Below, piece by piece: positions 20,511 through 47,395 of a stretch of 64,000 nucleotides of DNA; position 1 is the stretch's first letter, and every line of letters begins with the position of its first letter. The DNA comes from Stenotrophomonas ginsengisoli (lineage in GTDB: Bacteria; Pseudomonadota; Gammaproteobacteria; Xanthomonadales; Xanthomonadaceae): assembly GCF_001431485.1 (NCBI RefSeq), contig NZ_LDJM01000027.1:1-64000 (forward strand). The letters run 5' to 3'. Position numbers and translations under genes: made by a program. The notes under the pieces are model-generated. The model saw nothing but the letters and a program-made list of their open reading frames with translations. It was not told the origin of the DNA and did not search any database.

Positions 20511-20647
20511 GCGAGTGAGCCGGTTGAGCGATGAAACCATCTTGCCGTTGCCGGTCATATCCGGACAGGGCCATGCCGATTGACCCATGCGCCGCGCCCG
20601 CCTGTCGGCCCACCATGGCCGATATTCCAAATTCCCGGGGAAGCACG

Positions 20648-22564
20648 ATGCGCGCAATGCGGTGGACGGTACTGGCAGTGGCCTTGATCACGGCAGCTGG
20701 CGCAATGGCAACACCGTTGCCGGTAACGGTGGATGCGCGCGGTGTGGAAATCAGCAGCGCTGACTACCCGGGCACCATCACCCTGGAGATCGATGCCAGC
20801 AACCTGAGCCAGCGCGTGTTTTCCGTGCGCCAGACCGTGCCGGTAAGCGTCGGCGAGCGCCGCTTCCATTACCCGGCCTGGCTGCCGGGCAACCATTCGC
20901 CCACCGGCCAGATCGAAAAACTCGCCGGCCTGGTCATCACCGCCAAGGGCCAGCGCCTGCAATGGCAGCGTGACCCGCTGGATGTGTACACCTTCAACGT
21001 GCGTGTGCCCGAAGGCGTGAGCGAGCTGCAGATGGACTACCAGTTCCTCAGCCCCACCGACCCGGCGCAGGGCCGCACGGTGATGACGCCCAACCTGCTC
21101 AACCTGCAGTGGAACGCGATGGTGCTGTACCCGGCCGGCCATGCCGCCAATGCCATCGCCTACGCCGCAAGCGTGCGTTACCCGGCCGGCTGGCAGGCCG
21201 CCAGTGCGTTGCCGGTGGCCCGCCGCCAGGGCGATACCGTCCACTACGTGCCCACCAACCTGGAAGTGCTGGTGGATTCGCCGGTGTTTGCCGGCCGCTA
21301 CAGCCGCACCATCGCGCTTTCACCTGAAGGCAGCCGCCCGGTGCGCCTGAACGTGTTTGCCGACCGCGCCCGCGATCTGGAAGCCAAGCCCGAGCACCTC
21401 CAGCAACACCGCCAGCTCATCGAGCAGACCCGCAAGCTGTTCGGCGCCGAACATTACGACCACTACGATTTTCTGTTTGCCGTCACCAGCCAGCTTGGCG
21501 GCATCGGCCTGGAGCACCAGCGCTCCAGCGAGAACACCGAAGACCGCGATTACTTCAGCAGCTGGGATGAAAAGATCGGCAGCACCGACCTGCTCGGCCA
21601 CGAGTACGCCCACTCCTGGGACGGCAAGTACCGCCGCCCGCGTGATCTGACCACCCCGCACTACAACGTGCCCATGCAGGGCAGCCTGCTGTGGGTGTAC
21701 GAAGGCCAGACCCAGTACTGGGGCAACGTGCTCACTGCCCGTGCCGGCCTGCGCCCGCTGGCGCCCTCGCGTGATGCCCTGGCCCTGGTCGCAGCCACCT
21801 ATGCCGACAACCGCCCGGGGCTGGAATGGCGCTCGATGGGCGATACCACCAACGACCCGGTCATCGCCCGCCGCAAGCCGAAACCGTACCGCGGCTACCA
21901 GATGAGCGAGGACTACTACCAGGGCGGCCAACTGCTGTGGCTGGAAACCGACGTGCGCCTGCGCACTCTCAGCGGCGGCAAGGTCAGCCTGGATGACTTC
22001 GCCCGCACTTTCTTCGGTCAGAACGACGGGGAATGGGAACGCCCGTCCACCTACACCTTCGATGACGTGGTGGCCACGCTGGAACAACTGCAGCCCAGCG
22101 GCGACTGGAACACCTTCCTGCGCGACCGCGTCGAAGGCCGCATCGGCCTGACCGGCGGCATCGAAGCCAGCGGCTGGAAGCTGGTCTACCGCGACACGCC
22201 CAGCCCCTACCAGAAGGCCATGAGCAAGGGCAGTGGTGCCAACTTCACCTACTCACTCGGCTTCACCGTCGATGGCAGCGGCAAGGTTGGCGATGTGCGC
22301 TGGGACAGCCCCGCCTTCAACGCCGGCATCGGCCCCGGCATGCAGCTCGTGGCCATCAACGGCCTGCAGTACAGCCGCGAAGAGCTGGAAGACGCCGTGC
22401 GTGCCGCCAAGGACGCAAAGCAGCCGATCAGCCTGCTGGTGAAGGAAATGGACACCTACCGCAGCCTGCCCATCACCTACATCGATGGCCTACGCTACCC
22501 GCACCTGGAGCGCATCGAAGGCAGCACCGACTACCTGACCCCGATCTTCACCCCCCGCGACTGA
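20648..22564 (+). CDS. M61-family metallopeptidase with PDZ domain
   Basis: Exported glycyl-aminopeptidase-type zinc peptidase of 638 residues. A signal peptide covers about residues 1-21. The N-terminal beta domain contains HYPAWLPGNHSPTGQIEKLAG, followed by the catalytic domain with the HExxH motif as HEYAH at residues 318-322 (LLGHEYAHSWDGKYRRP) and EGQTQYWGNVL downstream. The last ~100 residues form a PDZ-like domain (NAGIGPGMQLVAINGLQYS). ATG 20648 follows GGGGAAG. A paralogue with the same architecture lies at 45512-47395. The gene is the left flank of the low-GC defence island. Confidence 0.92.
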   Translation: MRAMRWTVLAVALITAAGAMATPLPVTVDARGVEISSADYPGTITLEIDASNLSQRVFSVRQTVPVSVGERRFHYPAWLPGNHSPTGQIEKLAGLVITAKGQRLQWQRDPLDVYTFNVRVPEGVSELQMDYQFLSPTDPAQGRTVMTPNLLNLQWNAMVLYPAGHAANAIAYAASVRYPAGWQAASALPVARRQGDTVHYVPTNLEVLVDSPVFAGRYSRTIALSPEGSRPVRLNVFADRARDLEAKPEHLQQHRQLIEQTRKLFGAEHYDHYDFLFAVTSQLGGIGLEHQRSSENTEDRDYFSSWDEKIGSTDLLGHEYAHSWDGKYRRPRDLTTPHYNVPMQGSLLWVYEGQTQYWGNVLTARAGLRPLAPSRDALALVAATYADNRPGLEWRSMGDTTNDPVIARRKPKPYRGYQMSEDYYQGGQLLWLETDVRLRTLSGGKVSLDDFARTFFGQNDGEWERPSTYTFDDVVATLEQLQPSGDWNTFLRDRVEGRIGLTGGIEASGWKLVYRDTPSPYQKAMSKGSGANFTYSLGFTVDGSGKVGDVRWDSPAFNAGIGPGMQLVAINGLQYSREELEDAVRAAKDAKQPISLLVKEMDTYRSLPITYIDGLRYPHLERIEGSTDYLTPIFTPRD

Positions 22565-22640: not shown

Positions 22641-23183
22641 ATGAAGCCTGCACCCAGGAAGAAGAAAACCAAATCCAGACCGGTCGAGACGCCGCAGGAG
22701 CAGCGCTCGCGCATGATGCGCGGCATCCGGGGCAGCAACACCCAGCCGGAACTGCAGGTGCGCACGGCACTGCATGCACGCGGTTTCCGTTACAGGCTCA
22801 ATGCGAAGGATCTTCCCGGCAGGCCCGATATCGTGCTGCCCAAGTGGAAGACCGTGATCTTCGTGCACGGATGCTTCTGGCACGCCCATCAGGGCTGCCG
22901 CTACTTCCGTATACCGGCTACCCGAACCGAATTCTGGGAACAGAAGTTGGCCGCCAATGCCGCGCGTGATGCCCGGCAGATCGAACAGCTGCTGGCGATG
23001 GGGTGGCGGGTGTTGGCCGTGTGGGAATGTGCGTTGAAGAACAAAAACGCCACTGCCTTGGAGAAGGTAGTGGCGTTTGTTGAAGGCAATGAAAGTTTCA
23101 GTCAGCTTGCCGGAGCTTCCTTGTCTGACGCAGTGCCGTTGATCGCAGCGAAGACGACCGAGGCAATCTGGCGGGCCAAGTAG
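22641..23183 (+). CDS. vsr: Very short patch repair endonuclease
   Basis: Nicks DNA next to the T of T:G mismatches produced when 5-methylcytosine deaminates, protecting the sites of a partner cytosine methyltransferase. It has 180 residues with a Lys/Arg-rich N-terminal extension. The E. coli Vsr residues map cleanly: catalytic Asp63 (RPDIVLP), His76 and His81 (HGCFWHAH), with zinc ligands Cys78, His83, Cys86 and Cys130. ATG 22641 follows a GGGGAGG further upstream and gives the compact protein. It converges on the methyltransferase gene and overlaps it tail-to-tail by 82 nt, a close physical link to its presumed partner. Confidence 0.95.
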   Translation: MKPAPRKKKTKSRPVETPQEQRSRMMRGIRGSNTQPELQVRTALHARGFRYRLNAKDLPGRPDIVLPKWKTVIFVHGCFWHAHQGCRYFRIPATRTEFWEQKLAANAARDARQIEQLLAMGWRVLAVWECALKNKNATALEKVVAFVEGNESFSQLAGASLSDAVPLIAAKTTEAIWRAK

Positions 23184-24658
23184 GGGGGCACGGCATTGCC
23201 GACCTGCTTGCGCTGCGCACCGGCCGGACCTTCAAAGAAGAAGTTGTCCGGGAAGGTCTGCAGGCGGGCTGCTTCGCGGACGCTCAGGCTGCGGATCTGG
23301 GTGAAATCGGGATGGATGAAGTAGTGGCCATCCTTTGCCAGATGGCTGGTGATGGTGGAGCTTGGTCCATCCATGCACTGCACGTTGAAACGGTCCACAA
23401 ACTTCTTTCCTTCGGCCCAGTTTTTGTGGACGGGGGCAAGCGATTCAGGGAACTCGGCAGGGCCGCGAGGAGCGCGTTCCGTGACATGCGCGTAAGCAGA
23501 GGCATAGGCATAGCGCTCAAGGTCGGCAGTCATATGGCCTCGAGTGCAGTGATTGAGTGTGCCCGCGATCGCGGGGTCTACAAGCCACGTGTAAAGGTCA
23601 TCCGGTAATGAACATTCGTTTGACCAACGCGTGGCGGCATCAGAAACATAGTTTCCGCCGAGTCCAGGGTCGAAAGAGCTGAACTTCAGCTTTTCAGCTT
23701 CCGCAAGGAGCTTGCCGGAGACAGCTGGGGCAAGCTTCTTGGCCTTTTTTGCAACCTTTGAGAAGATCAACGATGCCGTCTCGGACCAAGTTCGGACTTG
23801 ATGGTCTGTAGGGCGGCTACGAAGCTTGGGTAGCCCATTCAGTGCCTGGGCAACAGTTACCTCGTCGGCCTTGCCCGGTTGAAGAAGCGCGTCTTCGGGA
23901 AGGGCGATATCTTCCTTGATGCCCATCAGGACAACACGATGGCGCGCCTGCGGTAGCCCCAGCTCTTCGGCACGAAGAAGGAAGTCACGTTCTTCCGGTT
24001 CGAAGCCGGAATGTCTGACGACAGGGACAACCCGATACTTCGGGCCATCAGGACCACCGGGTTGTTTCAGGTCAGCAATGATCCGCGGGAACATTCGCTT
24101 CCCGTCCACACGTGATGACAGCATGCCCTTGACGTTCTCCAAGATGAAAACGGCAGGCTGGTACTTCGAAACGATGTGCAGGTAGTGTCGATACAGGAAG
24201 TGACGGTGATCCTTGGCCGGATCGTAGTCCTTGATCCCGACGTTGCGGGACCTGCCAGCAAGTGAGAAGGCCTGGCACGGCGGGCCGCCCACCAGCACCC
24301 AAGGCGTGGTGGCGTTGGTGCCGATCTTCTCGTTGAGCAACTGATCCAGCCGGACGTCATCTTCTCCAAGTGTCAGCTGGTGTGCTTCGGAACAAGCGGC
24401 TTCCCACTGCTCCCGGGTTTCTTCCGTCCATGGCTGCAGAACTTCGCCACGAACATAGGCGTAGTAGCTGTCAGGAGCTTGGCCCAAAGGGAACTGATGG
24501 AAGAAAGCCCGCGTGCGCAGGGTCTTGGCGGCGTGTGCATCCATCTCGGCAGAAAGCACAACCTTGAAGGGTTGTTCACCCTGTTCGTTCCTGAACGCGG
24601 AAAAGCCTTCGCCGAGGCCACCGGCACCGGCGAAGATGTCTACTACTTTGATGGACAT
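23102..24658 (-). CDS. DNA (cytosine-5) methyltransferase
   Basis: Modification enzyme of the defence island, 518 residues. Motif I is FAGAGG (residues 9-14), the catalytic Pro-Cys is in VGGPPCQAFS (Cys128), motif VI is ENV (174-176), motif VIII is QARHR, and motif X is GNAVPPYLARQIA near the C-terminus, so all catalytic parts are present. The target-recognition region between motifs VIII and IX is unfamiliar, and the recognised sequence cannot be predicted. ATG 24658 begins directly at the first strand of the SAM fold. It lies 197 nt downstream of the AIPR gene on the same strand and overlaps vsr tail-to-tail. Its GC is intermediate between the island and the flanks. Confidence 0.95.
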   Translation of the reverse strand: MSIKVVDIFAGAGGLGEGFSAFRNEQGEQPFKVVLSAEMDAHAAKTLRTRAFFHQFPLGQAPDSYYAYVRGEVLQPWTEETREQWEAACSEAHQLTLGEDDVRLDQLLNEKIGTNATTPWVLVGGPPCQAFSLAGRSRNVGIKDYDPAKDHRHFLYRHYLHIVSKYQPAVFILENVKGMLSSRVDGKRMFPRIIADLKQPGGPDGPKYRVVPVVRHSGFEPEERDFLLRAEELGLPQARHRVVLMGIKEDIALPEDALLQPGKADEVTVAQALNGLPKLRSRPTDHQVRTWSETASLIFSKVAKKAKKLAPAVSGKLLAEAEKLKFSSFDPGLGGNYVSDAATRWSNECSLPDDLYTWLVDPAIAGTLNHCTRGHMTADLERYAYASAYAHVTERAPRGPAEFPESLAPVHKNWAEGKKFVDRFNVQCMDGPSSTITSHLAKDGHYFIHPDFTQIRSLSVREAARLQTFPDNFFFEGPAGAQRKQVGNAVPPYLARQIASVVFAAINGTASDKEAPAS

Positions 24659-24855
24659 GGAGCTGGGATGGAGCCTTGTTGGACGTGCCAGGATGGGATC
24701 ACGGGCCGACAAAGTCAATGGGAAATGCTGTCCATACGATGGCCTACAGCCGCTATGCTTTTCCTGAGGCGTTGATTCAATGTGTCTTGTAGCGCCGCCT
24801 TACTCATCCGCGCAGTACTGCATGCAACATTTCAGAAGTGGAAATGGTGGTCGAA
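24659..24855 (-). promoter_or_regulatory. Leader region of the methyltransferase gene
   Basis: These 197 nt separate the AIPR stop from the methyltransferase start and hold no convincing gene. The gap contrasts with the overlapping genes upstream, so the methyltransferase probably has its own promoter here. Methylation could then be established independently of the restriction genes. No controller-protein gene or C-box-like repeat was recognised. Confidence 0.4.
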
Positions 24856-26979
24856 CTAGGGTTGTCCAACTACATTTTCGTGGTGTCGGAAACCTTCAGC
24901 CTCACATCGATCACTGATTTCACGGAGTCGCTTCCATTCCCGGCCAGTAGCCAGGCGGACTGCGGTTCCGGGTGAGGATGCACGGCGAAGCAAATCCAAG
25001 TCCGGCCCAAAAACATGGATTTCAATACTGCGCCATTCCATAAGTGCTTGCCAGTATCCGTTCTCTGCCTTCATCAGGATCTGCTGTTGCAAAGATATTC
25101 CGTCGTCCTGAATTCCTTGCTGTCGTGCATCCCGTGCTTTTGATTTGTGCTCGTTCTTTTCAATTGACCACTCGATGGCTGTTGTATCCAATCGAAATGG
25201 AATGGCTGAAAGCTTGCCCCAGCACAACTCCTTTTTCGCCCACTCACCGACGTTGGATGATCCCTCTGGCAGTTCAAGAAGGGTGCGTTGCGCGAGAACC
25301 GCCGCTCTTTTGAAAACCTGCAAAAAGCCTTGATTTGCTTCCTGCTGTTCCCAGACCTTTTTCAAGTCAGGTTCACGACCCGCTTTGCGAAGTGCATGGA
25401 ATATAAATGACCATGCATAGGCAACAATCTGAGGACGGTAGTCTCCCTCGTACCATTGCCCCTTTGCAGCGGACACCGTAGTCTCGCCAGCCTTCCATAG
25501 TATGGCCATTGCAGCGATATTCTGATAATAGGTATCGCCAAAGTCAGGGCTCAATTCCTCCCATCGTTGTGCTTCCGTCTGGTCACCTTTCGATGAGAAT
25601 TTTGTTGCGAATTTCATGAAATTTTTCTGGGCACCAAGGCTCACCCAATATGGCTTTTCATGCAGTACGTTGTCGTACTTGGCCAGATCTGTCTTGTTGA
25701 TCACTTGGTCGGACGGATACTGCAGGTCAAAGGAATCTTTCTTTGCTTTCGAAAGATAAAGTCGCTCGTTCTGGTATTGCCCGCGAGAGCGCTCATAGAA
25801 CCACTTGCTTTGCACGCGGATGCCAGTGCGCGCCGGAACCATGAGACGTCTTGAAATTTCCTCCATCTTGCGGTGGAAGGGATGGTTGGCAAAGAAGTCC
25901 GCAATTGCCACCTTGTTTTGTGTATTTGCAAATTCGGCTATCTTCGGGATGAGATCATGCGCGTCGTTGCTCGCAACTACCGTAAGCTTCATGGGCACGC
26001 TCACACCCGCGAGATTGAGCCGATCCTGCTTCTTGCCGCGTAGGATGCTCGCTGTGGTCTGGCCACCGTTGACGATCTGCAGGTCAGAGATTTTCATTAT
26101 CCTGGCAGTCGATCCGATCGAATCAAGTGTCACTGATGCCGCAGTGGCTGCAATGCCATTGTTGTAAGCAAAGAACAAGTGTGGTGCATCTTGGATGGTT
26201 TTCCGAATGCCCTTGTTTACCCCGCCCTTCATGCCAAGGAATGATCGAACGTTGCCTTCCAAGAGGCGGCTGCCGTAACGATCAAAAAGATCAGCCAAGA
26301 GGTTCCCTTCGATAACGCAAAGGAAGGATTGAAGTCCTTCGCCTCTTGATGCCTCGATGCACGCGATGCCGGTTGATCCGAATTCGTCCAGATCTATCTG
26401 CAGCATCTCCCGCTCTCGGGAGGACTCATAGAGTGCTTTGATGCGCTGGAGATCCCAAATGTGGATTTCCGTTTGAGTACCGCAAACTTCAGATCTGGAT
26501 TCGCGCTTGTAGGCACGGCTAAGAGGCTGGTTTGAAAAAATATGAAGACGAATACAGGAAATGGACGCGCGCTTCCTTCGCAGGGTGCTTGCTAGTTGAT
26601 AGGCTGGACTTGACTCCGTGATTTTCTCATCCAATCCGCCATCCAGAGCCTCTGCAGCAAAGTTCTCTAGCCATCCGCGCAATTGATCCACATCAGCAGT
26701 CGTCAGGATTGCTGGTTCATCGTCATCTATCCAGCGCCCGATAACCATGGAAAGTGTTCCATCGGACTCATCGATATCTGTAAATCCATGGAGCTTTATC
26801 TGCTTATTCTTGGCGCCCTGTCTTGAATCTTCGGCCAAGATGAATTCGCCGAAAACGGGGTCTTCTTCCAAACGCTCAGCGACCTCTGAGACGAAGGCGA
26901 TTGTGTCGACAAGATTGGAGGTTTCTCCGCGCCGCATTACCATTTGGCGAAGTTCATTCAAGAACTCTGAATCTTCCAT
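24856..26979 (-). CDS. AIPR-family protein
   Basis: Protein of 707 residues in the AIPR (abortive infection phage resistance) family. Diagnostic stretches are GNVRSFLGMKGGVNKGIRKT (242-261), HLFFAYNNGIAATA (267-280) and DLQIVNGGQTTASIL (299-313), followed by a long conserved core to about residue 480. The N-terminal 120 residues (GFTDIDESDGTLSMVIGRW) resemble the opening of other AIPR proteins. The family is associated with phage resistance and with restriction-modification loci, but its biochemical activity is not established as far as I know. It starts 14 nt after the nuclease gene ends, inside the same minus-strand operon. AT-richer codons than the flanks point to horizontal transfer. Confidence 0.9.
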   Translation of the reverse strand: MEDSEFLNELRQMVMRRGETSNLVDTIAFVSEVAERLEEDPVFGEFILAEDSRQGAKNKQIKLHGFTDIDESDGTLSMVIGRWIDDDEPAILTTADVDQLRGWLENFAAEALDGGLDEKITESSPAYQLASTLRRKRASISCIRLHIFSNQPLSRAYKRESRSEVCGTQTEIHIWDLQRIKALYESSREREMLQIDLDEFGSTGIACIEASRGEGLQSFLCVIEGNLLADLFDRYGSRLLEGNVRSFLGMKGGVNKGIRKTIQDAPHLFFAYNNGIAATAASVTLDSIGSTARIMKISDLQIVNGGQTTASILRGKKQDRLNLAGVSVPMKLTVVASNDAHDLIPKIAEFANTQNKVAIADFFANHPFHRKMEEISRRLMVPARTGIRVQSKWFYERSRGQYQNERLYLSKAKKDSFDLQYPSDQVINKTDLAKYDNVLHEKPYWVSLGAQKNFMKFATKFSSKGDQTEAQRWEELSPDFGDTYYQNIAAMAILWKAGETTVSAAKGQWYEGDYRPQIVAYAWSFIFHALRKAGREPDLKKVWEQQEANQGFLQVFKRAAVLAQRTLLELPEGSSNVGEWAKKELCWGKLSAIPFRLDTTAIEWSIEKNEHKSKARDARQQGIQDDGISLQQQILMKAENGYWQALMEWRSIEIHVFGPDLDLLRRASSPGTAVRLATGREWKRLREISDRCEAEGFRHHENVVGQP

Positions 26980-26993
26980 ATCAATTCCCCTTG

Positions 26994-27950
26994 TTACTGC
27001 TTTCTCAGTCTCTTAAATGAAATCACGTAAACTGCCGAGTCAATTCCTTCCGGAACCGTATCAACGGTCAGTCGTGGAAAATCATCGTCAACAGTGAAGT
27101 GCTCCACCTGCATTGGTTCGAACGCGATTCCGTCATAGTGCGTATGCTCGACGTAGCCTGCCTCAAGCAACGCGTCACGAAAAAAGGTCAAAGCGCTGGA
27201 TTCCGGAGCCAAGCGCTGCTCTAGCTGGGCTACTATTTCATTTAATGTAATGGCAGCCGTTTCCTTGGCAGCCGCTGGGCGCAATGTCCATACGCTCAAT
27301 GAAATAGGTAGCCGGCTGTCCAGTTGTTTGAGAGAGCTTATGCTTATTCCTTGTGCCCCAGGACCAACTGCCTTGATCTCGATCACGGTGTCGGAAAATT
27401 GAAAGTCTTGATCGCCGCCGTAAGGACCAACCCATGCTGCGGCAACCTCTGATATTCCATACCTTTGTTCATCAAGTATGGAGTTCATGGAGAGCAATTC
27501 AGCGAGAAGACCCTTGACCTGAAAATCTGCAAGCAATCCAGCGTTGCCTCTATCGAACAATTTTTGCCAAAGCGTGAGGCGTCTGTGAACGAGTTTCACA
27601 AGATCTTTCTCGTGTTGTATTCCAGTAATCTCGTCTATCAGATCCTGACATAGTCGGCCAAAGACGGGGGAAAGCTCCTTGTTACGCAGCCTGAGAACCA
27701 TCAGCCACGTATCAAAATCTTTTCTTTGATGCCTGAAGTAGTCCAGCACGTTTGATCTAATCGCTGCAGTTGGTGGCTTTGTTTTGACTTCGATTGCGAG
27801 GAGGTGCGAGCCACTACCATCAACGCCGCCATAGGTCTTCTTGTCTGAGTTTTCATCGACTAGAAAGATCAGGTAGGCATCAGGATTTAGCAGGTTGTTG
27901 CTTGCCTTTTGGGATGCCACTTCCCAGGTTTTCTCAATCGAGGTCTTCAT
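26994..27950 (-). CDS. PD-(D/E)XK-motif endonuclease
   Basis: Predicted restriction nuclease of 318 residues. The core motif is D182-x8-E191-x-K193 in QDFQFSDTVIEIKAVG, preceded by a helix Glu at about 151 (KGLLAELLSM), the arrangement of restriction-endonuclease-fold enzymes. The family commonly sits beside Z1 and MORC-like genes. I chose ATG 27950, which has GAGG 10 nt upstream and overlaps the Z1 gene by 17 nt. The open frame starts eight codons earlier, at a run of Met codons that merely mirror the acidic Z1 C-terminus. It is probably the DNA-cleaving subunit, directed or licensed by the ATPases. Confidence 0.88.
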   Translation of the reverse strand: MKTSIEKTWEVASQKASNNLLNPDAYLIFLVDENSDKKTYGGVDGSGSHLLAIEVKTKPPTAAIRSNVLDYFRHQRKDFDTWLMVLRLRNKELSPVFGRLCQDLIDEITGIQHEKDLVKLVHRRLTLWQKLFDRGNAGLLADFQVKGLLAELLSMNSILDEQRYGISEVAAAWVGPYGGDQDFQFSDTVIEIKAVGPGAQGISISSLKQLDSRLPISLSVWTLRPAAAKETAAITLNEIVAQLEQRLAPESSALTFFRDALLEAGYVEHTHYDGIAFEPMQVEHFTVDDDFPRLTVDTVPEGIDSAVYVISFKRLRKQ

Positions 27951-30654
27951 ACGAATCATCCTCATCGTCATCAATCAGTCCAACGTTATGCAGATAGACC
28001 TTGTTCAGGCGATACCGGACGGGTGAGAGGTTGGTATCCTCATAAATTGGAAAAGATAGACTTACGCCGATCAGGAAATTTGTATTGATTTTACAGGCAG
28101 GAATGATTCGGTTGACGCTTTTGGATCCCGGCTTCGGGTCGGTTGGCTGTACAAGATGGACCGTCAGAAGCGGATTCTCGCGTACGCGTCGATATGCATC
28201 GCCTGGGACGCGCGTTTGGGAATTTCTCTCCGGATTCGACGCCCTCCAAGAGTTCTCGGCTTGATCGATCAGTTCATTTTCAATGCCTGTCTTTTCATCT
28301 GAAATTTCACCCAGGCGCATCTTGTTGACTTTCAGGAAGTCCGTGCCCCATGATTTGTTTTTTTCAAACTGGCGTTTGCGTTTTGAGACCCGGATCGGAG
28401 ATCCATCGGTATTCTCAAGGGTGATGCCATCAGCGGTATCACCCTCACCTTGAGGAAGGCATACATCCCAGTACTGCAAGGATTCGATTTCGTTCTCGGC
28501 AATGAAGGACAAGAGGGGCTTGTCTTTGGTTTTGCTGTCAGGCATGAATTCCTGATTTGCTGGCGGGATCTCCAATTCCGCTAGATATGCAGAAATTTGA
28601 CTGGAGTGCACCCGTCGCCAGAGGTATCGATTACCCATTTGTTCTGGCGGCCCCAGCCTCCTGAGGAATGCCTCTGTAACCCTTGCATTACTCTTATTCG
28701 CTTCTGGAGACTTGGGCAGACTGGTTGTCTCTACCCCTCGACCACTGAAGGAAGCCTCAATCAAGACCTCCTTGGAATGGCGCATCTTGTTCTTCGCGGT
28801 TACCAGCAATAAATCAGGATGCGACTTCACTCGAATACCGAAACGACTGGGCGGTAAACGATTGATGTGCATATGCCTGATATCTGTCCTGAGTTCGTTG
28901 ACAACCTCAGCGATATGCCCGAACCAGTCTTGTGCCTCGGGAGCCATCCAGACTCGGCAAAGATCATCGTAATCAGGCCTGTAGCCGAACCATCTTCCCA
29001 TTTGCAGCAGGGTGTCGTAGGCCCTCGAGTTGCGATAGAAGTAGCTTACGCACAGTCCTTCAAGCGTAAGCCCGCGCGACAGGGTAAGACCGCCGATCGC
29101 GATGACTCGTCGACCTTTTTCTGTATTTCTGTAATGTCGATAGTTGAGTCTTTCTTCGGCTTCAGTCTTCTGATTGATGGTTACGACTTTTACCGATGCG
29201 ATTGAATCGTATAGTTTTCTGCGGATCTGGTCCCAAGTTACGCCGCTTTCACGGTAATGTTCAATATAGAGTTCATGCAACCTAGAAAGCGGTTCGTGGC
29301 GCGACCACAAGTCATCATCGACAAGGTACTGTTTGATCTCATTTGTGAGATCAAAAAGGTAGCTCTTCACAGTCTCCGCAAGTCGAGCTTGGACCTCTGT
29401 AAATCGTGTGACATTTACCAGCATGGATCGGTGGCGTAACCCTTCCTTCCGAAGATCCCGTATGGCACATGAAAGAAAGAATACATTAAGTGCATCCTGC
29501 ATCGACTTTGGAAGCTCAGCCACCTCCAGATTCTTTTTGTGCTTGTCCGGGAAGATCGCCTGCGCATCAGTGATATCGACCAGTTGGTTCGCGTGTTCGC
29601 CATCTTCAAGAAATATCGAGGATGCGCCGATATATGTGCTTGGAGCTCTTAGGCTGTAGATGAAGTTGTTCGGGAACAGGTCCTTCCGCTCCGTGTCGGG
29701 ATTTATGAAAACGTTTGCAAATGGTGTTGCCGTATATCCTACATAGGCTGATCTGCGGAACTGGTCCATGAGTTCCCGAATCAGGCTGTTGATCCTGGCG
29801 GGATCCTCATCTTTCTTGGAATTAACGGATGCGTTGTCTGCCTCATCGTCTACCAGGAACAGCGGGATATCCAGTTGCGTGGATCCATGGCGCATCTGGC
29901 CTTTGAGGAACTTGATCAGCCTCGTGAGTGGTGTCGTGTTCTTCTTCAGAACCAGGAGCAAGGGTTCCCCGAGATTCTGTAGAGGGATCCCTCGCAGGGC
30001 ACGCTGGTTGGCTGCCAAGAAGTCAGAATCGATGGACGTGAGTACGTTCGGCGTGGCTTCGCGAAACCTTCCTGCCCCAATTGTCCGTCCGCGAATTCCT
30101 TCGATGAGTTCGCTGCTATCCTGGCCTACAAATCCTTCATCCATGCGTTCTTGGGACTGTGAACGCAATTCCTCGATCATTCCTGTGAGAAGAACAACAA
30201 CCTTGTAACCAGCATCAGCTGCCTTGTTGATCAAGCCACAATAGTTGGCTGTTTTTCCAGACTGGACATCACCCATTACGAGGCCTTGAGTCCTCCAGGC
30301 AGTTACGTCAGCAGGGTTTCCGCATTCCGTCAGGATGTTGTCAGTATCTTCATTGATTGTTCGAAGCACTGGTCCTGTGAAGCCTTGGGACTGAAGTTGG
30401 CGCACGTAGGAGTCCCAGTAAGTCCAAGTGATACTGGATCTGGCGTCATCCAGCCAAGGCTCGATCTCTCCGCTTGAAAGCCCTTCTCCAGGACTCATGC
30501 TTACTCCAACCATCGCCTCGAGTCGACGTCTTGTCGGCTCAAGATCCATTCCGCTGAAAATCTTGGAGAGAACATCCATCGTACTTACAAGCACGTCGTC
30601 AGTCAGATCTTGTACTCCAATGATTCCCATCGCTGTCAGAAATGGATCAGACAT
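27934..30654 (-). CDS. Z1-domain helicase-like ATPase
   Basis: Large ATPase of 906 residues related to superfamily II helicases. The Walker A motif is GDVQSGKT (128-135), Walker B is FLVDDEADNAS (266-276) and motif III is VGYTATPFANV (305-315), an uninterrupted core. The Z1 domain follows, with GGLTLSRGLTLEG and MGRWFGYRPDYDDLCRVW typical of the family. The C-terminus is highly acidic. It overlaps the MORC gene by 8 nt and the nuclease gene by 17 nt. By family knowledge it is expected to translocate on or remodel DNA for the nuclease; this has not been shown for this protein. Confidence 0.93.
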   Translation of the reverse strand: MSDPFLTAMGIIGVQDLTDDVLVSTMDVLSKIFSGMDLEPTRRRLEAMVGVSMSPGEGLSSGEIEPWLDDARSSITWTYWDSYVRQLQSQGFTGPVLRTINEDTDNILTECGNPADVTAWRTQGLVMGDVQSGKTANYCGLINKAADAGYKVVVLLTGMIEELRSQSQERMDEGFVGQDSSELIEGIRGRTIGAGRFREATPNVLTSIDSDFLAANQRALRGIPLQNLGEPLLLVLKKNTTPLTRLIKFLKGQMRHGSTQLDIPLFLVDDEADNASVNSKKDEDPARINSLIRELMDQFRRSAYVGYTATPFANVFINPDTERKDLFPNNFIYSLRAPSTYIGASSIFLEDGEHANQLVDITDAQAIFPDKHKKNLEVAELPKSMQDALNVFFLSCAIRDLRKEGLRHRSMLVNVTRFTEVQARLAETVKSYLFDLTNEIKQYLVDDDLWSRHEPLSRLHELYIEHYRESGVTWDQIRRKLYDSIASVKVVTINQKTEAEERLNYRHYRNTEKGRRVIAIGGLTLSRGLTLEGLCVSYFYRNSRAYDTLLQMGRWFGYRPDYDDLCRVWMAPEAQDWFGHIAEVVNELRTDIRHMHINRLPPSRFGIRVKSHPDLLLVTAKNKMRHSKEVLIEASFSGRGVETTSLPKSPEANKSNARVTEAFLRRLGPPEQMGNRYLWRRVHSSQISAYLAELEIPPANQEFMPDSKTKDKPLLSFIAENEIESLQYWDVCLPQGEGDTADGITLENTDGSPIRVSKRKRQFEKNKSWGTDFLKVNKMRLGEISDEKTGIENELIDQAENSWRASNPERNSQTRVPGDAYRRVRENPLLTVHLVQPTDPKPGSKSVNRIIPACKINTNFLIGVSLSFPIYEDTNLSPVRYRLNKVYLHNVGLIDDDEDDSYEDLD

Positions 30655-32095
30655 CAGCTAGCCTCACTTTGATTGCTTCATGCATGGTCGGGAAACGTGC
30701 CAATGGATCAATTCCAAGAACTTTGGCTACATCAAGTCCCGTAAGTTCAAGAATGATCCTGGCCATATCAACGAGATGATCGATTTGATTATCAGCGTCC
30801 TGTGGCTTGTCTGAGCACATGTCGGCATATATCTGGTCGTAGGGCAATGAAACCGCCAGGTGTTCAAATACTGTCTGCATGTGGCGCTGCTGGTCTGCAT
30901 CCATTGATTCGCAGAGCTTTGCGATCAATGGATGGTTGATATTTACCTGGTAGCTGAAACTGCCATGTTTTGGTTCGAATCGATCCCAGAGTGGAACGAC
31001 TTCAGTATTTTTTCCTGATCGTCGGCCTGTATATACAATCGCTTTTCTGCTCTTTTCAGCAAAGTGTGGGATCAGGAGTTTGAGACGATCGCGGATTGCA
31101 TCAGGTGGGTAGGCTGCAGACTTCTTGATATCCAATGCCCACAAGTCATCGAATGAATTAGGGATATCGACCCTGACCCTGGTGAGCTTGTAGAACTCAT
31201 GTTTTGGAACTAGTCGAAACCACGTCCCCCAGATTACAAGACGTCGTCCGCGATAAACGTAGAAGCCTTGTGTGCCGCGGAGGCCGTCACGTCCCCCAGC
31301 AGTCTCGATCTCTTCTTCGCTCAGTCGGCTGATTGGAGGCAGAACGAAGGGTGAAACCTCGACAGTGCCGCGATCATGGCGGATGGTTTGTCCTTCAAGC
31401 TCTTGCCGGAACTGGTTGGAGGCCAGAAAAGGGTCGCGAAGAGGCAATGACATTCCATTCACTGTTATCGATACTGCAGAGTGCAGTCCTTCTTTCTGCG
31501 TAAATCGATGGAATACAAGCGCCAAGTGCTCCAGCAAGGGGGCCATCTTGGAGGTCATTTCCTTTTGGACGTCCCTTGCTCCAGCTGTCAGCCTGTCGAG
31601 ATCTTGCCATACCACAAGGGTTCCGGAATCCTGGGCACGCAATCGCGTGAACATTGGCATTTTTTCAAACTCAAGCTCATCAGGGACAACTACCAGCCAG
31701 CGTCCTGTCTCCCGTACAACGTCCAAATCCCATCGCCGGGCAGTGATGGTTCCAGTCTTGCTGCTGATAACCGTCAGTTTTCGACACTGGGAAAGAGAGG
31801 CCGTCTTGAGTCCCAGTCCAAATCGGCCGAGATCGTCTGTCCCTCGTTGATCGACAGGGTTGGAGCTGCCATGTCGCATGGCATTGGTAAGCTCATCAGG
31901 AGCCATGCCTTTGCCATCGTCGAGAATCGCAACGAAGGGGTTTTCGCTGGCGTCGTACTGGATTCGAACGGTAGATGCTCCAGCCGAAAGACTGTTGTCC
32001 ACGATGTCAGCTACCGCAGCTTCCACTGAATACCCGACGGATCGCATCGACTCGACCAGCGATACAGGGTCCGGAACTACTTCAAGCGTCTCCAT
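30647..32095 (-). CDS. MORC/MutL-like GHKL ATPase
   Basis: First gene of the defence operon, 482 residues. An N-terminal GHKL fold has the N-box VADIVDNSLSAGA (28-40), DDGKGM (59-64) and GRFGLGLKTAS (90-100). A second alpha/beta domain of S5 type follows, with RVRVDIPNSFDDLWALDIKKS providing the invariant lysine region. The residue that acts as general base in MutL (Glu) is Asp30 here, which may be usual for this branch. Such ATPases clamp DNA by ATP-driven dimerisation and belong to the prokaryotic group proposed as ancestors of eukaryotic MORC proteins. A 9-bp inverted repeat at 32101-32124 covers the ribosome-binding site. Confidence 0.92.
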   Translation of the reverse strand: METLEVVPDPVSLVESMRSVGYSVEAAVADIVDNSLSAGASTVRIQYDASENPFVAILDDGKGMAPDELTNAMRHGSSNPVDQRGTDDLGRFGLGLKTASLSQCRKLTVISSKTGTITARRWDLDVVRETGRWLVVVPDELEFEKMPMFTRLRAQDSGTLVVWQDLDRLTAGARDVQKEMTSKMAPLLEHLALVFHRFTQKEGLHSAVSITVNGMSLPLRDPFLASNQFRQELEGQTIRHDRGTVEVSPFVLPPISRLSEEEIETAGGRDGLRGTQGFYVYRGRRLVIWGTWFRLVPKHEFYKLTRVRVDIPNSFDDLWALDIKKSAAYPPDAIRDRLKLLIPHFAEKSRKAIVYTGRRSGKNTEVVPLWDRFEPKHGSFSYQVNINHPLIAKLCESMDADQQRHMQTVFEHLAVSLPYDQIYADMCSDKPQDADNQIDHLVDMARIILELTGLDVAKVLGIDPLARFPTMHEAIKVRLADV

Positions 32096-32170: not shown

Positions 32171-33961
32171 TCAATTTTTCCGCTCCACCCGCCACAACAC
32201 CCCCAGCAGCCCGACCAGTGCGAGCCACCACGGCCAGCGTGGGCCGGGCTGTTGCGGCAGGGCGTGGTCAGTGGGCAGGGCGGAGGCGGCAACGATGTCA
32301 GCGGTATCGCGCTGGGTCTGGGCGCGGTGCAGGCCGGGGGCCTGGGTGGGGGCGGTGACGTATACGGCCTGATCGTTGATGCGGTGCCAGCCGCTGTGTT
32401 GCGGCCACCAGGCGGCGCAGCCGGGTGTGGCCGGGTCGATGCGCAGGTGTTGTGACTGCTGGGTATCGTTGTGGACCACGTCGGTATCGGCAGGCAGGCC
32501 GCACAGCGTGCTGCGTTCGTGCTGCCAGATGATGCCGGTGTGCTGCAGGCGGGTGTGGCGGCCATCGGTCTGTTCGCCATCGGCCTGCTGTTGCGAGGTG
32601 GTGTTGCCGGCTTGCGGGCGTCCCAGCACGCTGCTGATGCCGGCCCACAGGGCGGCATGCAGTTCATCACGGCCGGCCAGTACCAGCAGGTGGGTGTCGG
32701 GCAGGGCGAGCAGGCCGACACGGCCACGGCCGACGGCCTGCCACAGGCCGATGCGGTGCGTCCCCTGGCGCAGCGGCTGCGCATTGCCGGCCGTGACATT
32801 CCAGCGCTCCAGTGCCGGGGCGGCCTCGGCCTGTGTTGGCGTGTGCGCACGCGGGCCGCGCAGCACGTCCAGGCGTTCGGGTGTGGTCTTGTCCGCTTCC
32901 AGCTGCAGGGGCTGTGTGCGGTTGCCGCCATCCACGCGCAGGCCGAGTTCGGCCAGGGCCTGGCGATGGCTGGGCTGCAGTGCATCGCGTGGCTGCACCA
33001 GCACACCCAGGCCTGCCTGCACGGCGCTGCGCAGGCGGGCGCGGCCGGCACTGCCCAGGGCAAGCAGGCTGCGTTCGTCGAGCAGCAGCAAATCGCTGTT
33101 GGCCAGCTGCCGCGCATCCATGCCTGTTGCCGGATCGCCCAGGGCCACGCCGCCACCGGTGGGCAGCTGGCGCGTGGTGGCCAGACCGGCATCGCTGGCC
33201 CAGCGCTGGATGAACTTGTTTTCGGCATTGGGCGCACCGGCCAGCTGGTGCAGGCGCAGGGCATGGCCATCGACCACCTGCAGGGGCAGCGGGGTGCTGT
33301 CGATCAGGCGGTTGTCGGCATCCACGATGCGCAAGGCATACACCACCAGGCCGGCAGCACGCAGCGGCGCCTGCAGGCTCACCTGGCCGTTGTCGGCAAT
33401 GGCCTGGCGATCCACCAGGCGCTCGGCCGGGTCACGCAGTTCGGCCTGCCAATTGGCGCGCGCCTGGCCGGCCACACGGGCATGCACCTGCAGCTGGCCG
33501 CCGCTGGCAAGGGTGTCGGGCAGCTGCACATCCACCAGCCCGTGCAAGGCGGCAGGTGCATGGCGCAGCACGGCGCGTTGCGGCAGGCGGTCACGCGCGG
33601 GCAGGCCATCGCCGAGCAGTTGCACCGTGGTGATTTGCGGCTGGCTGCGCAGCAGGCTGGCCAGGTCGGCCACAGGTTGTGCGCCGGCCACCTCGCCGGC
33701 TTCGGGCAGGGCGTAGAGCGGGCCGTTGGCATCGGCCGGCAGGCTGGCAGCCGGTGAGGTCAGCAGCAGCGCCGTGATGGCCGGCACGCCCTGCAAGGGC
33801 GGGAACAGTGCCAACCACAAGGCGCCGGCCACCAGCAGCTGCAATACACAAAGCAGGGCCTTGCGCATGGCCGACAGGCCAGCACGGCGCAGGCTGCCGA
33901 GCATGCCGATCAGCAGCGCGATGAGGATCAGGCCCAGCGGCCAGGACAGGGCGGTGCTCAT
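32171..33961 (-). CDS. Membrane protein with glutamine-amidotransferase-like domain
   Basis: Protein of 596 residues, last gene of the MoxR/Bat block. The N-terminus has two membrane helices (about residues 5-22 and 35-53), and a third sits at the very end (WPWWLALVGLLGVLW). In between is a large, probably periplasmic region with Ig-like beta sequence. Around LLLLDERSLLALGSAGRARL there is a flavodoxin-like fold as seen in the amidotransferase-like domains of BatA-associated proteins, without an evident nucleophilic Cys. Its start overlaps the upstream gene by 4 nt (ATGA). I infer a structural or regulatory part in the same complex; no enzymatic role is visible. The right edge of the defence island lies 75 nt downstream. 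Confidence 0.75.
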   Translation of the reverse strand: MSTALSWPLGLILIALLIGMLGSLRRAGLSAMRKALLCVLQLLVAGALWLALFPPLQGVPAITALLLTSPAASLPADANGPLYALPEAGEVAGAQPVADLASLLRSQPQITTVQLLGDGLPARDRLPQRAVLRHAPAALHGLVDVQLPDTLASGGQLQVHARVAGQARANWQAELRDPAERLVDRQAIADNGQVSLQAPLRAAGLVVYALRIVDADNRLIDSTPLPLQVVDGHALRLHQLAGAPNAENKFIQRWASDAGLATTRQLPTGGGVALGDPATGMDARQLANSDLLLLDERSLLALGSAGRARLRSAVQAGLGVLVQPRDALQPSHRQALAELGLRVDGGNRTQPLQLEADKTTPERLDVLRGPRAHTPTQAEAAPALERWNVTAGNAQPLRQGTHRIGLWQAVGRGRVGLLALPDTHLLVLAGRDELHAALWAGISSVLGRPQAGNTTSQQQADGEQTDGRHTRLQHTGIIWQHERSTLCGLPADTDVVHNDTQQSQHLRIDPATPGCAAWWPQHSGWHRINDQAVYVTAPTQAPGLHRAQTQRDTADIVAASALPTDHALPQQPGPRWPWWLALVGLLGVLWRVERKN

Positions 33962-36117
33962 CGGCGGGCCTTGGTCGGATCGCGCTGCAGCGCATCGAGG
34001 TAACGCTGGCCCATGGCATCGGCAGCCGGGCGGGCCAGCGGGCGGGCCACCGGCTGGGTCCAGGCCTGCCACAGCGCCGCACGCAGGTGGTCGCGGCAGG
34101 GCTGGCAGGTGGGGTCGCTGCGCAACGGGTCCAGTGCGGCGGCCAGCGCCAGCGGGTCACGCAGTTCGCCGGCATGGCGGCTGAGCCAGCCTTGCAGGGC
34201 CTCCACCGGCGGTGCGGCGCCGCGGTCCAGTGCCAGCCAGGCTTGGGCGATGGCAGCATCCACCGGTGCGCCGGCATCAATGGCCAGGCGCCGGCTGGCT
34301 ACGCCTTCGCGCTTGCCGGTCATGCGCCGTGCCATGTCGATGGGCGGCAGCTCCGGGCCCAGGCGGGCCAGATAAACCCGCTCGGCCTGCTGCACCTGCT
34401 TGATGAAGGCCAGCGCCTTGTAGGCATGCGGCAGCGCCTGCTCAGGCCTGCCCTGGCGCAGCTCGCCCTCGCTCAGCCACATCGCATCCAGTGCGGATTT
34501 GAGGATGGCGCGGGTCTGCGGGTCGAGCAGGGTGGCCGCTTCGGCGTGGTCATGGGTGTGGCCGTATTCGGCCAGCACATCACTCACCGTGGTGGTGCCC
34601 ATCGGCTTGGGGGCTTGCGGCTCGCCGTGGTCATGCCCGGCATGGCCAGTGCTGGCGTGGTCGTGGCCATCGTCATCGCTGTGGCTCTCACCGTCGTGGT
34701 CGCCAGCGGGCTTGCTCAAGCCCGGCGGCGCTTCCGGCTCACCTTCGCTTTCCTCGCCCAGGAACTGGCCGTAGCGCAGGCGCAGGATGCGCTGGTCCAC
34801 GCCGATGGCATCGGCGCGTACCACGAACCGCTCGGCATCCAGGCTGCGCCGCTGGGCGATCAGCGCCTCGGCATCGATGATGATCTGGCGCTGGCTGCGG
34901 AAGTAGGCCGGCAGCACTTTCTTGATCGCGCCTTCCAGGTCACTGGCCTGCTGCTCGGCCTCGCTTGGCAGGCGCAGGATCAGGCTCGGGCTCTGCCCGG
35001 CTTGGGCGTTCGGCGCGCGGTTGTCGCGCACGTCCAGACGGGCGATGAGGTCATCGCCGGGTTGCGCGCCGAGGGCGGCGATGTCCACCCGCTGGCTGAA
35101 ACGGCGCAGCGTGGCCGGGCCGCTGCCGCGCAGGGCGATGCGGGTTTCATGGAAGCTGATGTTCTCGCCGCTGCCTTCGGTACGGGTGAGCAGCAGGCTG
35201 GCACCGGCCTGCACGCCGTAGTCGTCACTGGCCTCGAACAGCAGCTCCCAATGGCGCTGACCGGGCCGGCCGAGGGTGAGCGGTTGTTCCGGGGTGATCA
35301 CCCGCACCTGTGGCGGCAAATCCGCGGTGGCATCCAGGCGGTGCAGTGGGGCATCGGCCAGGGCCGGCTCGGTGACCACGCGGTACAGGGCCGATGCGAC
35401 CAGTGTATGGCGGGCGTGCCAGCTGTCGTCATCGCCGCGCTCAAGGGCGATCTGGCGGCCATCGTGGAAGTGCAGGGCGGCCGATTGCACATGGGCGATG
35501 TGCAGTTCCCAGCGCAGGACGGTGTTGTGCGGGGCGCGCACGTCCAGCGAATCCTGGGTGCCGGCGCGCTGGCCGGTGTAGGCCGGCGGGGCCAGGTGTA
35601 CGGCGATGGCCTGCAGCTGCGGGCGGGCATCACCGGCGATGGCCGGTGCAGGTGTGGCAGTGCGTGCCGGTGCCGGCGGTGCCGCAGGGCGCCCGGCCCA
35701 CCAGCCGATGGCGACCAGCAGCACGGCGGCGGCAAGGCTGGCGATCAGGCCACGGCGCGGGAAGGGCGTGGACAGTTCTTGACGGCGCTGGGCGATGGTC
35801 GCTTCCAGCTGCTGTTTGAGCCGCGCCTGCAGCGGGTTGAGGGTGGCGGCATCGGCCAACAGCAGGTCGGCGCTGTCGAACAGGGCGGGGTCGCGGTTGA
35901 GCTGGCGCACCAGCCAGCGCGCATCCATTGCGCGCAGACTGCGCCACAGCCACACACCTGTGACCAGCAGTGCGACGGCGAAACACGCCACCGCCCAGTG
36001 CCCCAGCGGACGGATCGCGATGGTTGCCGCGATGGCCGGCGGCAGCAGCAGCCAGCCGGCCTGGCGGATGCGTGCGTTGCGGGCGGCTTGCCACAGCGTG
36101 TGGACGTGGCGGTTCAT
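33958..36117 (-). CDS. DUF4175-like membrane protein with histidine-rich segment
   Basis: Protein of 719 residues with two membrane helices near the N-terminus (about 20-36 and 41-58) and a third at about 124-141. A large periplasmic part follows, with beta-sandwich-like sequence to about 380 and helical, possibly coiled-coil sequence to about 450. Residues 473-524 are rich in His and Asp (for example HDHASTGHAGHDHGE) and look like a metal-binding loop. The C-terminal 190 residues are helical. It starts inside the end of the BatA gene (4-nt overlap) and ends inside the start of the next gene. The family assignment rests on layout and neighbours and is uncertain. Confidence 0.75.
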   Translation of the reverse strand: MNRHVHTLWQAARNARIRQAGWLLLPPAIAATIAIRPLGHWAVACFAVALLVTGVWLWRSLRAMDARWLVRQLNRDPALFDSADLLLADAATLNPLQARLKQQLEATIAQRRQELSTPFPRRGLIASLAAAVLLVAIGWWAGRPAAPPAPARTATPAPAIAGDARPQLQAIAVHLAPPAYTGQRAGTQDSLDVRAPHNTVLRWELHIAHVQSAALHFHDGRQIALERGDDDSWHARHTLVASALYRVVTEPALADAPLHRLDATADLPPQVRVITPEQPLTLGRPGQRHWELLFEASDDYGVQAGASLLLTRTEGSGENISFHETRIALRGSGPATLRRFSQRVDIAALGAQPGDDLIARLDVRDNRAPNAQAGQSPSLILRLPSEAEQQASDLEGAIKKVLPAYFRSQRQIIIDAEALIAQRRSLDAERFVVRADAIGVDQRILRLRYGQFLGEESEGEPEAPPGLSKPAGDHDGESHSDDDGHDHASTGHAGHDHGEPQAPKPMGTTTVSDVLAEYGHTHDHAEAATLLDPQTRAILKSALDAMWLSEGELRQGRPEQALPHAYKALAFIKQVQQAERVYLARLGPELPPIDMARRMTGKREGVASRRLAIDAGAPVDAAIAQAWLALDRGAAPPVEALQGWLSRHAGELRDPLALAAALDPLRSDPTCQPCRDHLRAALWQAWTQPVARPLARPAADAMGQRYLDALQRDPTKARR

Positions 36118-45511: not shown

Positions 45512-47395
45512 ATGGCAAGGCAGGGGACTTGGCTGGCACGGGTGGGGGTGGCAGTTGCCACGATGGCGGCGGTAGCGGCACAGGCCCAGGTGCCGGCGCC
45601 CGGGCCGGGTTGGCCCGGCAGCATGCAGTTGCGGGTGGATGCCAGCGACGTGCAGCGGCGCCTGCAGCGGGTGCAGCAGACCCTGCCGGTGCAGCCGGGC
45701 ACGCTGACCCTGTGGTATCCGCAATGGATACCCGGCCACCACGCCCCGACCGGGCCGATCAACCAGATCGCCGGCCTGCGCCTGCAGGGCAACGGCAAGC
45801 CGCTGGCCTGGCAGCGCGACCCGCACAACATGTACGCCATCCAGGTCGAGATTCCGGCCGGGGTGAGCCAGCTGCAGCTGTCCTTTGATTACCTTTCGCC
45901 CACGGCCACCGACCAGGGCCGGGTGGCGATGACCCGCAACCTGCTGTCCATCCAGTGGCACCGCGTGCTGTTCTACCCGGCCGGGATCGATACCCGCCAG
46001 CTGCAGGTGGATGCCACCTTGTGCCTGCCGGCGGCCTGGCAGGCGGGCAGCTCGTTGCGCGGGCAGCGCCAGGGCGATTGCCTGGCCTACCGCCCGGTGG
46101 ACCTGATGACCCTGATCGATTCACCGGTCTATGCCGGCCGCCATTACCGCGCCCTGCCACTGGATGCGGGCAAGGCGCAGCCGGTGCTGCTGCATGCGGT
46201 GGCCGAACAGGCCGGCCAGCTCGAGCCCAGTGCGCCGGTGCTGGCCGCACACAAGGCGCTGGTGGCCGAGGCCGATGTGCTGTTCGGCCATCGCCCGTAT
46301 GCGCACTACGATTTCCTGCTGGCGCTGTCGGACACCTTCACCGGCATCGGCCTGGAGCATGCGCAGTCCAGCGAGAACGGCATGCACGAGGGCTACCTGC
46401 AGGGGGAGCCGCCGGTGGCCGACAACGACCTGCTGGCGCACGAGTACGTGCATGCCTGGATCGGCAAGGCCTGGCGTCCGGCCGGCAGCTGGGTGGCCCA
46501 TTACAACGGGCCGATGGACAACCGTGGGCTGTGGGTCTACGAAGGCCTGACCCAGTACTGGGCGCTGGTGCTGGCGGCCCGTTCCGGGTTGTGGAACCAC
46601 GAGCAGGTGATGGCCCGCCTGGCCCAGCTGCAGGCCCAGTTCAGCACCCAGGCCGGGCGCCGGTGGCGTGACCTGGCCGATACCCAGTACCAGGGCATTG
46701 CCGACTTCAACGACAAGCCGCAGGCCTGGGCGGACTGGCAGCGCGGCTTTGATTTCTACGACGAGGGCATCCTGTTCTGGCTGGCCATCCAGGCCGAGCT
46801 GCAGCAGCGCTCGGCCGGTGCCCAGGGCCTGGATAATTTCACTGCCGCCTTCCACCAGGGCAGCGTGCCCGGGCAGGTGCAGTTGTTCGAACCGGAACAG
46901 GTGGCGCGCACCCTGCAGGCCCAGGTGTCCGGCGACTGGCAGGGCTTCATCGACCAGCGTCTGGGCGACCGCAGCGGCAGCGTCCCGGATGGTCTGGCCC
47001 GGCTGGGCTGGGAGCTGGCCTGGAGCGAGCAGCCCAATGTGCTGGTGGCCGATGCCCAGGCCGATGGCAGCACCGACCTGCAGTTCTCGCTGGGCTTGAA
47101 GCTGTCATCCGATGGCACGGTGCGCTGGGTCGGCTGGGAAAGCCCGGCCTTTGCCGCCGGGCTGGCGCGTGACATGCAGGTGCTGGCGGTCAACAGCCTG
47201 GTCTACAGCGGCAGCCGCCTGCGCCAGGCGGTGACCGATGCCAAGGCCGGGGTCCCGATCCAGCTGCTGGTGCGCCAGGACCAGACCGTGCAGCAACTGC
47301 GCATCGAGTACCGCGACGGCCTGCGTTACCCGCAGCTGCGCCGTATCCCCGGCAGCAGCGACCGTCTCGGCCCGCTGCTGGCCCCCCGGCGCTGA
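45512..47395 (+). CDS. M61-family metallopeptidase with PDZ domain (second copy)
   Basis: Exported zinc peptidase of 627 residues, paralogous to the protein at 20648-22564. A signal peptide covers residues 1-25 (ending AAQAQ). The beta domain has WYPQWIPGHHAPTGPINQIAG, and the catalytic motif is HEYVH at residues 310-314 (LLAHEYVHAWIGKAWRP), followed by YEGLTQYWALVLAA. A PDZ-like C-terminus contains AAGLARDMQVLAVNSLVYS. An ATG start with GGAGG about 8 nt upstream is convincing. Two M61 enzymes in one window suggest partly different substrates, perhaps Gly-rich peptides from the medium or the wall. Confidence 0.92.
   Translation: MARQGTWLARVGVAVATMAAVAAQAQVPAPGPGWPGSMQLRVDASDVQRRLQRVQQTLPVQPGTLTLWYPQWIPGHHAPTGPINQIAGLRLQGNGKPLAWQRDPHNMYAIQVEIPAGVSQLQLSFDYLSPTATDQGRVAMTRNLLSIQWHRVLFYPAGIDTRQLQVDATLCLPAAWQAGSSLRGQRQGDCLAYRPVDLMTLIDSPVYAGRHYRALPLDAGKAQPVLLHAVAEQAGQLEPSAPVLAAHKALVAEADVLFGHRPYAHYDFLLALSDTFTGIGLEHAQSSENGMHEGYLQGEPPVADNDLLAHEYVHAWIGKAWRPAGSWVAHYNGPMDNRGLWVYEGLTQYWALVLAARSGLWNHEQVMARLAQLQAQFSTQAGRRWRDLADTQYQGIADFNDKPQAWADWQRGFDFYDEGILFWLAIQAELQQRSAGAQGLDNFTAAFHQGSVPGQVQLFEPEQVARTLQAQVSGDWQGFIDQRLGDRSGSVPDGLARLGWELAWSEQPNVLVADAQADGSTDLQFSLGLKLSSDGTVRWVGWESPAFAAGLARDMQVLAVNSLVYSGSRLRQAVTDAKAGVPIQLLVRQDQTVQQLRIEYRDGLRYPQLRRIPGSSDRLGPLLAPRR

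Follow-up and report, generated by a model that had tools for sequence, protein, structure and literature searches.

A window of 64,000 nucleotides (the whole stretch analysed) from Stenotrophomonas ginsengisoli contig NZ_LDJM01000027.1, part of a 3.37-Mb genome in 99 contigs, carries a predicted anti-phage island whose type has been described before, in which a DNA-cutting core of four genes is joined to a DNA-marking gene pair. The core comprises a MORC-type GHKL ATPase, a superfamily 2 (SF2) helicase, a PD-(D/E)XK nuclease and an AIPR protein, and the pair consists of the methyltransferase Dcm and the endonuclease Vsr. An initial annotation had reported these six genes at 22641..32095, and matches of the individual proteins in Pfam (E ≤ 0.01), NCBIfam and PADLOC confirm them. 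The core genes resemble those of MZA (mzaABCDE), a defence system reportedly described by Gao in 2020, whose MzaA is an ankyrin and sigma-70 protein.

The GHKL ATPase contains the MORC S5 motif at 277 (GFYVYRGRRLV), which in our own rendering is present in 64 of 68 homologues, and weakly matches MORC4, MORC2 and MutL in the Protein Data Bank (PDB; E 4e-5 to 7e-4). The helicase carries a Walker A motif together with DTxxQxxRxFG (DTLLQMGRWFG at 547), a motif type found in 66/78 homologues. The nuclease, modelled at a pLDDT of 92.6, has the site E159-D190-E199xK201, whose four named residues are invariant in 23 aligned rows. Modelling of AIPR (pLDDT 86.4, pTM 0.53) accompanies a predicted restriction endonuclease fold in its N-domain, where fold matches and alignments revealed no conserved catalytic residues; fold matches also indicate a weak resemblance of the middle part to the ParB N-domain, and a C-terminal extension of approximately 100 aa is absent from the nine MzaA-containing rows compared. 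In the marking pair, dcm is the sole open frame of its genome matched by PF00145 and converges with vsr, whose product exceeds the TIGR00632 cut-off (143.9 versus 97.85 bits) and aligns to the Vsr endonuclease structure 1cw0 (3e-35).

Comparison between loci suggests that the core and the methyltransferase are exchanged as separate modules. Relative to the same island in S. koreensis, core proteins are 95–99% identical, whereas Dcm is 93% identical in its catalytic part and 61% in its target-recognition region (55–69% at the DNA level, against 85–89% for the remainder of dcm). A second pair of loci, L051/L047, is 86–93% identical in the core, 42% in Dcm and 43% in Vsr, and L025 and the window are 58–76% identical in the core and 41% in Dcm. 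The core–Dcm Mantel correlation is about zero (r −0.06 to 0.09 over 40 loci), and several loci place Dcm of other classes beside the same kind of core. Counter to module exchange, the recognition region is weakly correlated with the core in 28 loci with main-class Dcm (r 0.23–0.31), whole main-class Dcm correlates with AIPR and with the nuclease (r 0.14 each, p 0.04 and 0.02), the Dcm catalytic part correlates with nuclease residues 10–150 (r 0.15, p 0.01), and Dcm is itself only weakly correlated with Vsr (r 0.34, 0.15 and 0.30 in three samples). Among 23 close-pair rows in which both loci have Dcm, moreover, 17 show Dcm conserved about as well as the core or better; because recent common descent accounts for Dcm kept with the core, the odds for the readings weighed below are unchanged. 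A near-identical core combined with a differing Dcm recognition part in a close relative makes the target-setting component testable.

Dcm might be the subunit that gives the entire machine its specificity, with a core that has no fixed target and works with the adjacent Dcm, following a BREX-like logic whereby the methyltransferase is required for restriction and sets its target. The S. koreensis comparison, the two other pairs and the near-zero Mantel correlation argue for this arrangement, but the weak tracking of the core by the recognition region implies some matching, regions 61% identical may still read the same sequence, and the 17 rows in which Dcm is kept with the core count against it, although common descent would also produce them; we consider it distinctly unlikely. 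A classical restriction–modification system, with specificity inside the core and isospecific methyltransferases whose swaps are neutral, is quite possible at somewhat less than even odds. It would fit the conserved half of the recognition region common to 31 main-class Dcm (H..R.HM..DL.RY, F.DRF.V), the weak correlation between recognition region and core, and the nuclease being the fastest-changing core protein relative to S. koreensis (17/326 residues; non-synonymous divergence, dN, 0.023 versus 0.003–0.005), but not the Dcm of other classes found with the same kind of core. Nor need nuclease change follow Dcm, since in L153/L016 the nuclease differs by 26% at 98% Dcm identity. The same pair, with nucleases 74% identical, also speaks against the idea that the PD-(D/E)XK nuclease acts as a Dcm-following specificity subunit, which was prompted by its excess change relative to S. 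koreensis and by a weak partial correlation (r 0.15, p 0.03, among many tests) between nuclease and recognition region. An MZA-like sensor system, in which Dcm–Vsr would be an accessory or hitchhiker and not a self-mark, is unlikely, as Dcm is linked in 48/50 loci, in varying order and orientation, and is present in 10 of the 11 loci with MzaA and GHKL.

Several points weigh against the reading that we consider more likely than not, of the island as a defence core with its own marking pair. A literature search found no experiment on this subtype, and the MzaB–E scores lie so far under the equivalog cut-offs that findings made with MZA might not apply here. Across the 40 loci, Dcm fails to track the core, unlike the expectation for a fixed-specificity core matched to one methyltransferase. 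Finally, no 5-methylcytosine reader or sequence-recognition domain was found in the core proteins by Pfam at E ≤ 0.01, and none was clear when the nuclease and AIPR models were compared with the PDB. The initial annotation's interpretation, that the nuclease cuts DNA lacking the cognate mark, is supported in part.

Table 1 Features of the island and its borders.
Feature	Length	Position	Strand	Basis
Left flank, M61 peptidase, host gene next to the insertion site		20531..22564	+	Same neighbour in G018, G020
vsr, very short patch repair (T:G mismatch) endonuclease	180 aa	22641..23183	+	PF03852 8e-29
dcm, C5-cytosine DNA methyltransferase	518 aa	23102..24658	-	PF00145 2e-42
dcm target-recognition region, motif VIII to motif IX	~residues 253–419	23400..23900	-	S. 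koreensis comparison
AIPR (MzaE-like)	707 aa	24856..26979	-	PF10592 1e-85, PF22879 7e-27; MzaE 289 bits
PD-(D/E)XK nuclease DUF4420 (MzaD-like)	326 aa	26994..27974	-	PF14390 1e-51; MzaD 132 bits
SF2 helicase (MzaC-like)		27934..30654	-	PF10593 7e-76; MzaC 484 bits
GHKL ATPase of MORC type (MzaB-like)	482 aa	30647..32095	-	PF13589 3e-36; MzaB 302 bits
Right flank, host gene at the opposite edge of the insertion site		32171..34072	-	Adjoins cluster with BatA-like gene

The two host genes on either side of the island, which are convergent, enclose a canonical MZA locus with MzaA in genome G018 (L014) and lie about 640 bases apart, island-free, in G020 (L140), marking the insertion site as a chromosomal exchange site. 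GC content rises from 50.3% in the core to 58.6% in dcm–vsr and 67–68% in the flanks. The right-flank gene had no Pfam match. At the S. koreensis locus (L017) the right neighbour is that of the window, and no M61 match was found in the 3.8 kb beyond Vsr. The window holds a second M61 peptidase gene at 45512-47395.

Related forms occur elsewhere. In L018 (4059-7578), L019, L020, L033, L059 and L060, three co-conserved genes (~615, 303 and 255 aa) replace GHKL and AIPR; the two members scanned gave no Pfam match above cut-off and a single PADLOC match (PDC-M33A, 45 bits). This variant is perhaps type I of a putative defence system in 'Deciphering microbial gene function using natural language processing' (Nat Commun 2022, PMC9523054). 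Viral contigs L095–L106 encode a shorter AIPR relative (554–560 aa, ~85 bits), and no other genes of the island set were found on them.

Among known systems, DISARM supplies the best PADLOC model for the island Dcm (DrmMII, 285 bits), but no other Drm model was matched by the six proteins (PADLOC, with the best 25 of 55 matches for Dcm). The CglI and NgoAVII nuclease has PLD and B3 domains, and the available text of its descriptions mentions no MORC, DUF4420 or AIPR partner (PMC4267653, PMC5737866); Pfam matched no such PLD or B3 domain in the six island proteins, whose nuclease is a DUF4420 PD-(D/E)XK enzyme. Type II of the PMC9523054 system, divided there into II-A and II-B, is printed with DUF4220 where Pfam gives DUF4420, and its available text does not name Vsr, which the island has. 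MZA is represented by adjacent MzaB, MzaC, MzaD and MzaE homologues (PADLOC, NCBIfam), but all four fall below the equivalog cut-offs (302/850, 484/1500, 132/420 and 289/1050 bits), and a search limited to the 64-kb window (18–37 kb, then the remainder) found no MzaA. With the described MORC-type system, the island shares a MORC GHKL ATPase with S5 motif, an SF2 helicase with a DThhQXuRhFG motif, a restriction endonuclease-fold nuclease with E-D-ExK and the frequent cytosine methylase and Vsr, while AIPR appears in the figure key. No defining difference was found; the island is one more member of that system, to which our analysis adds module exchange.
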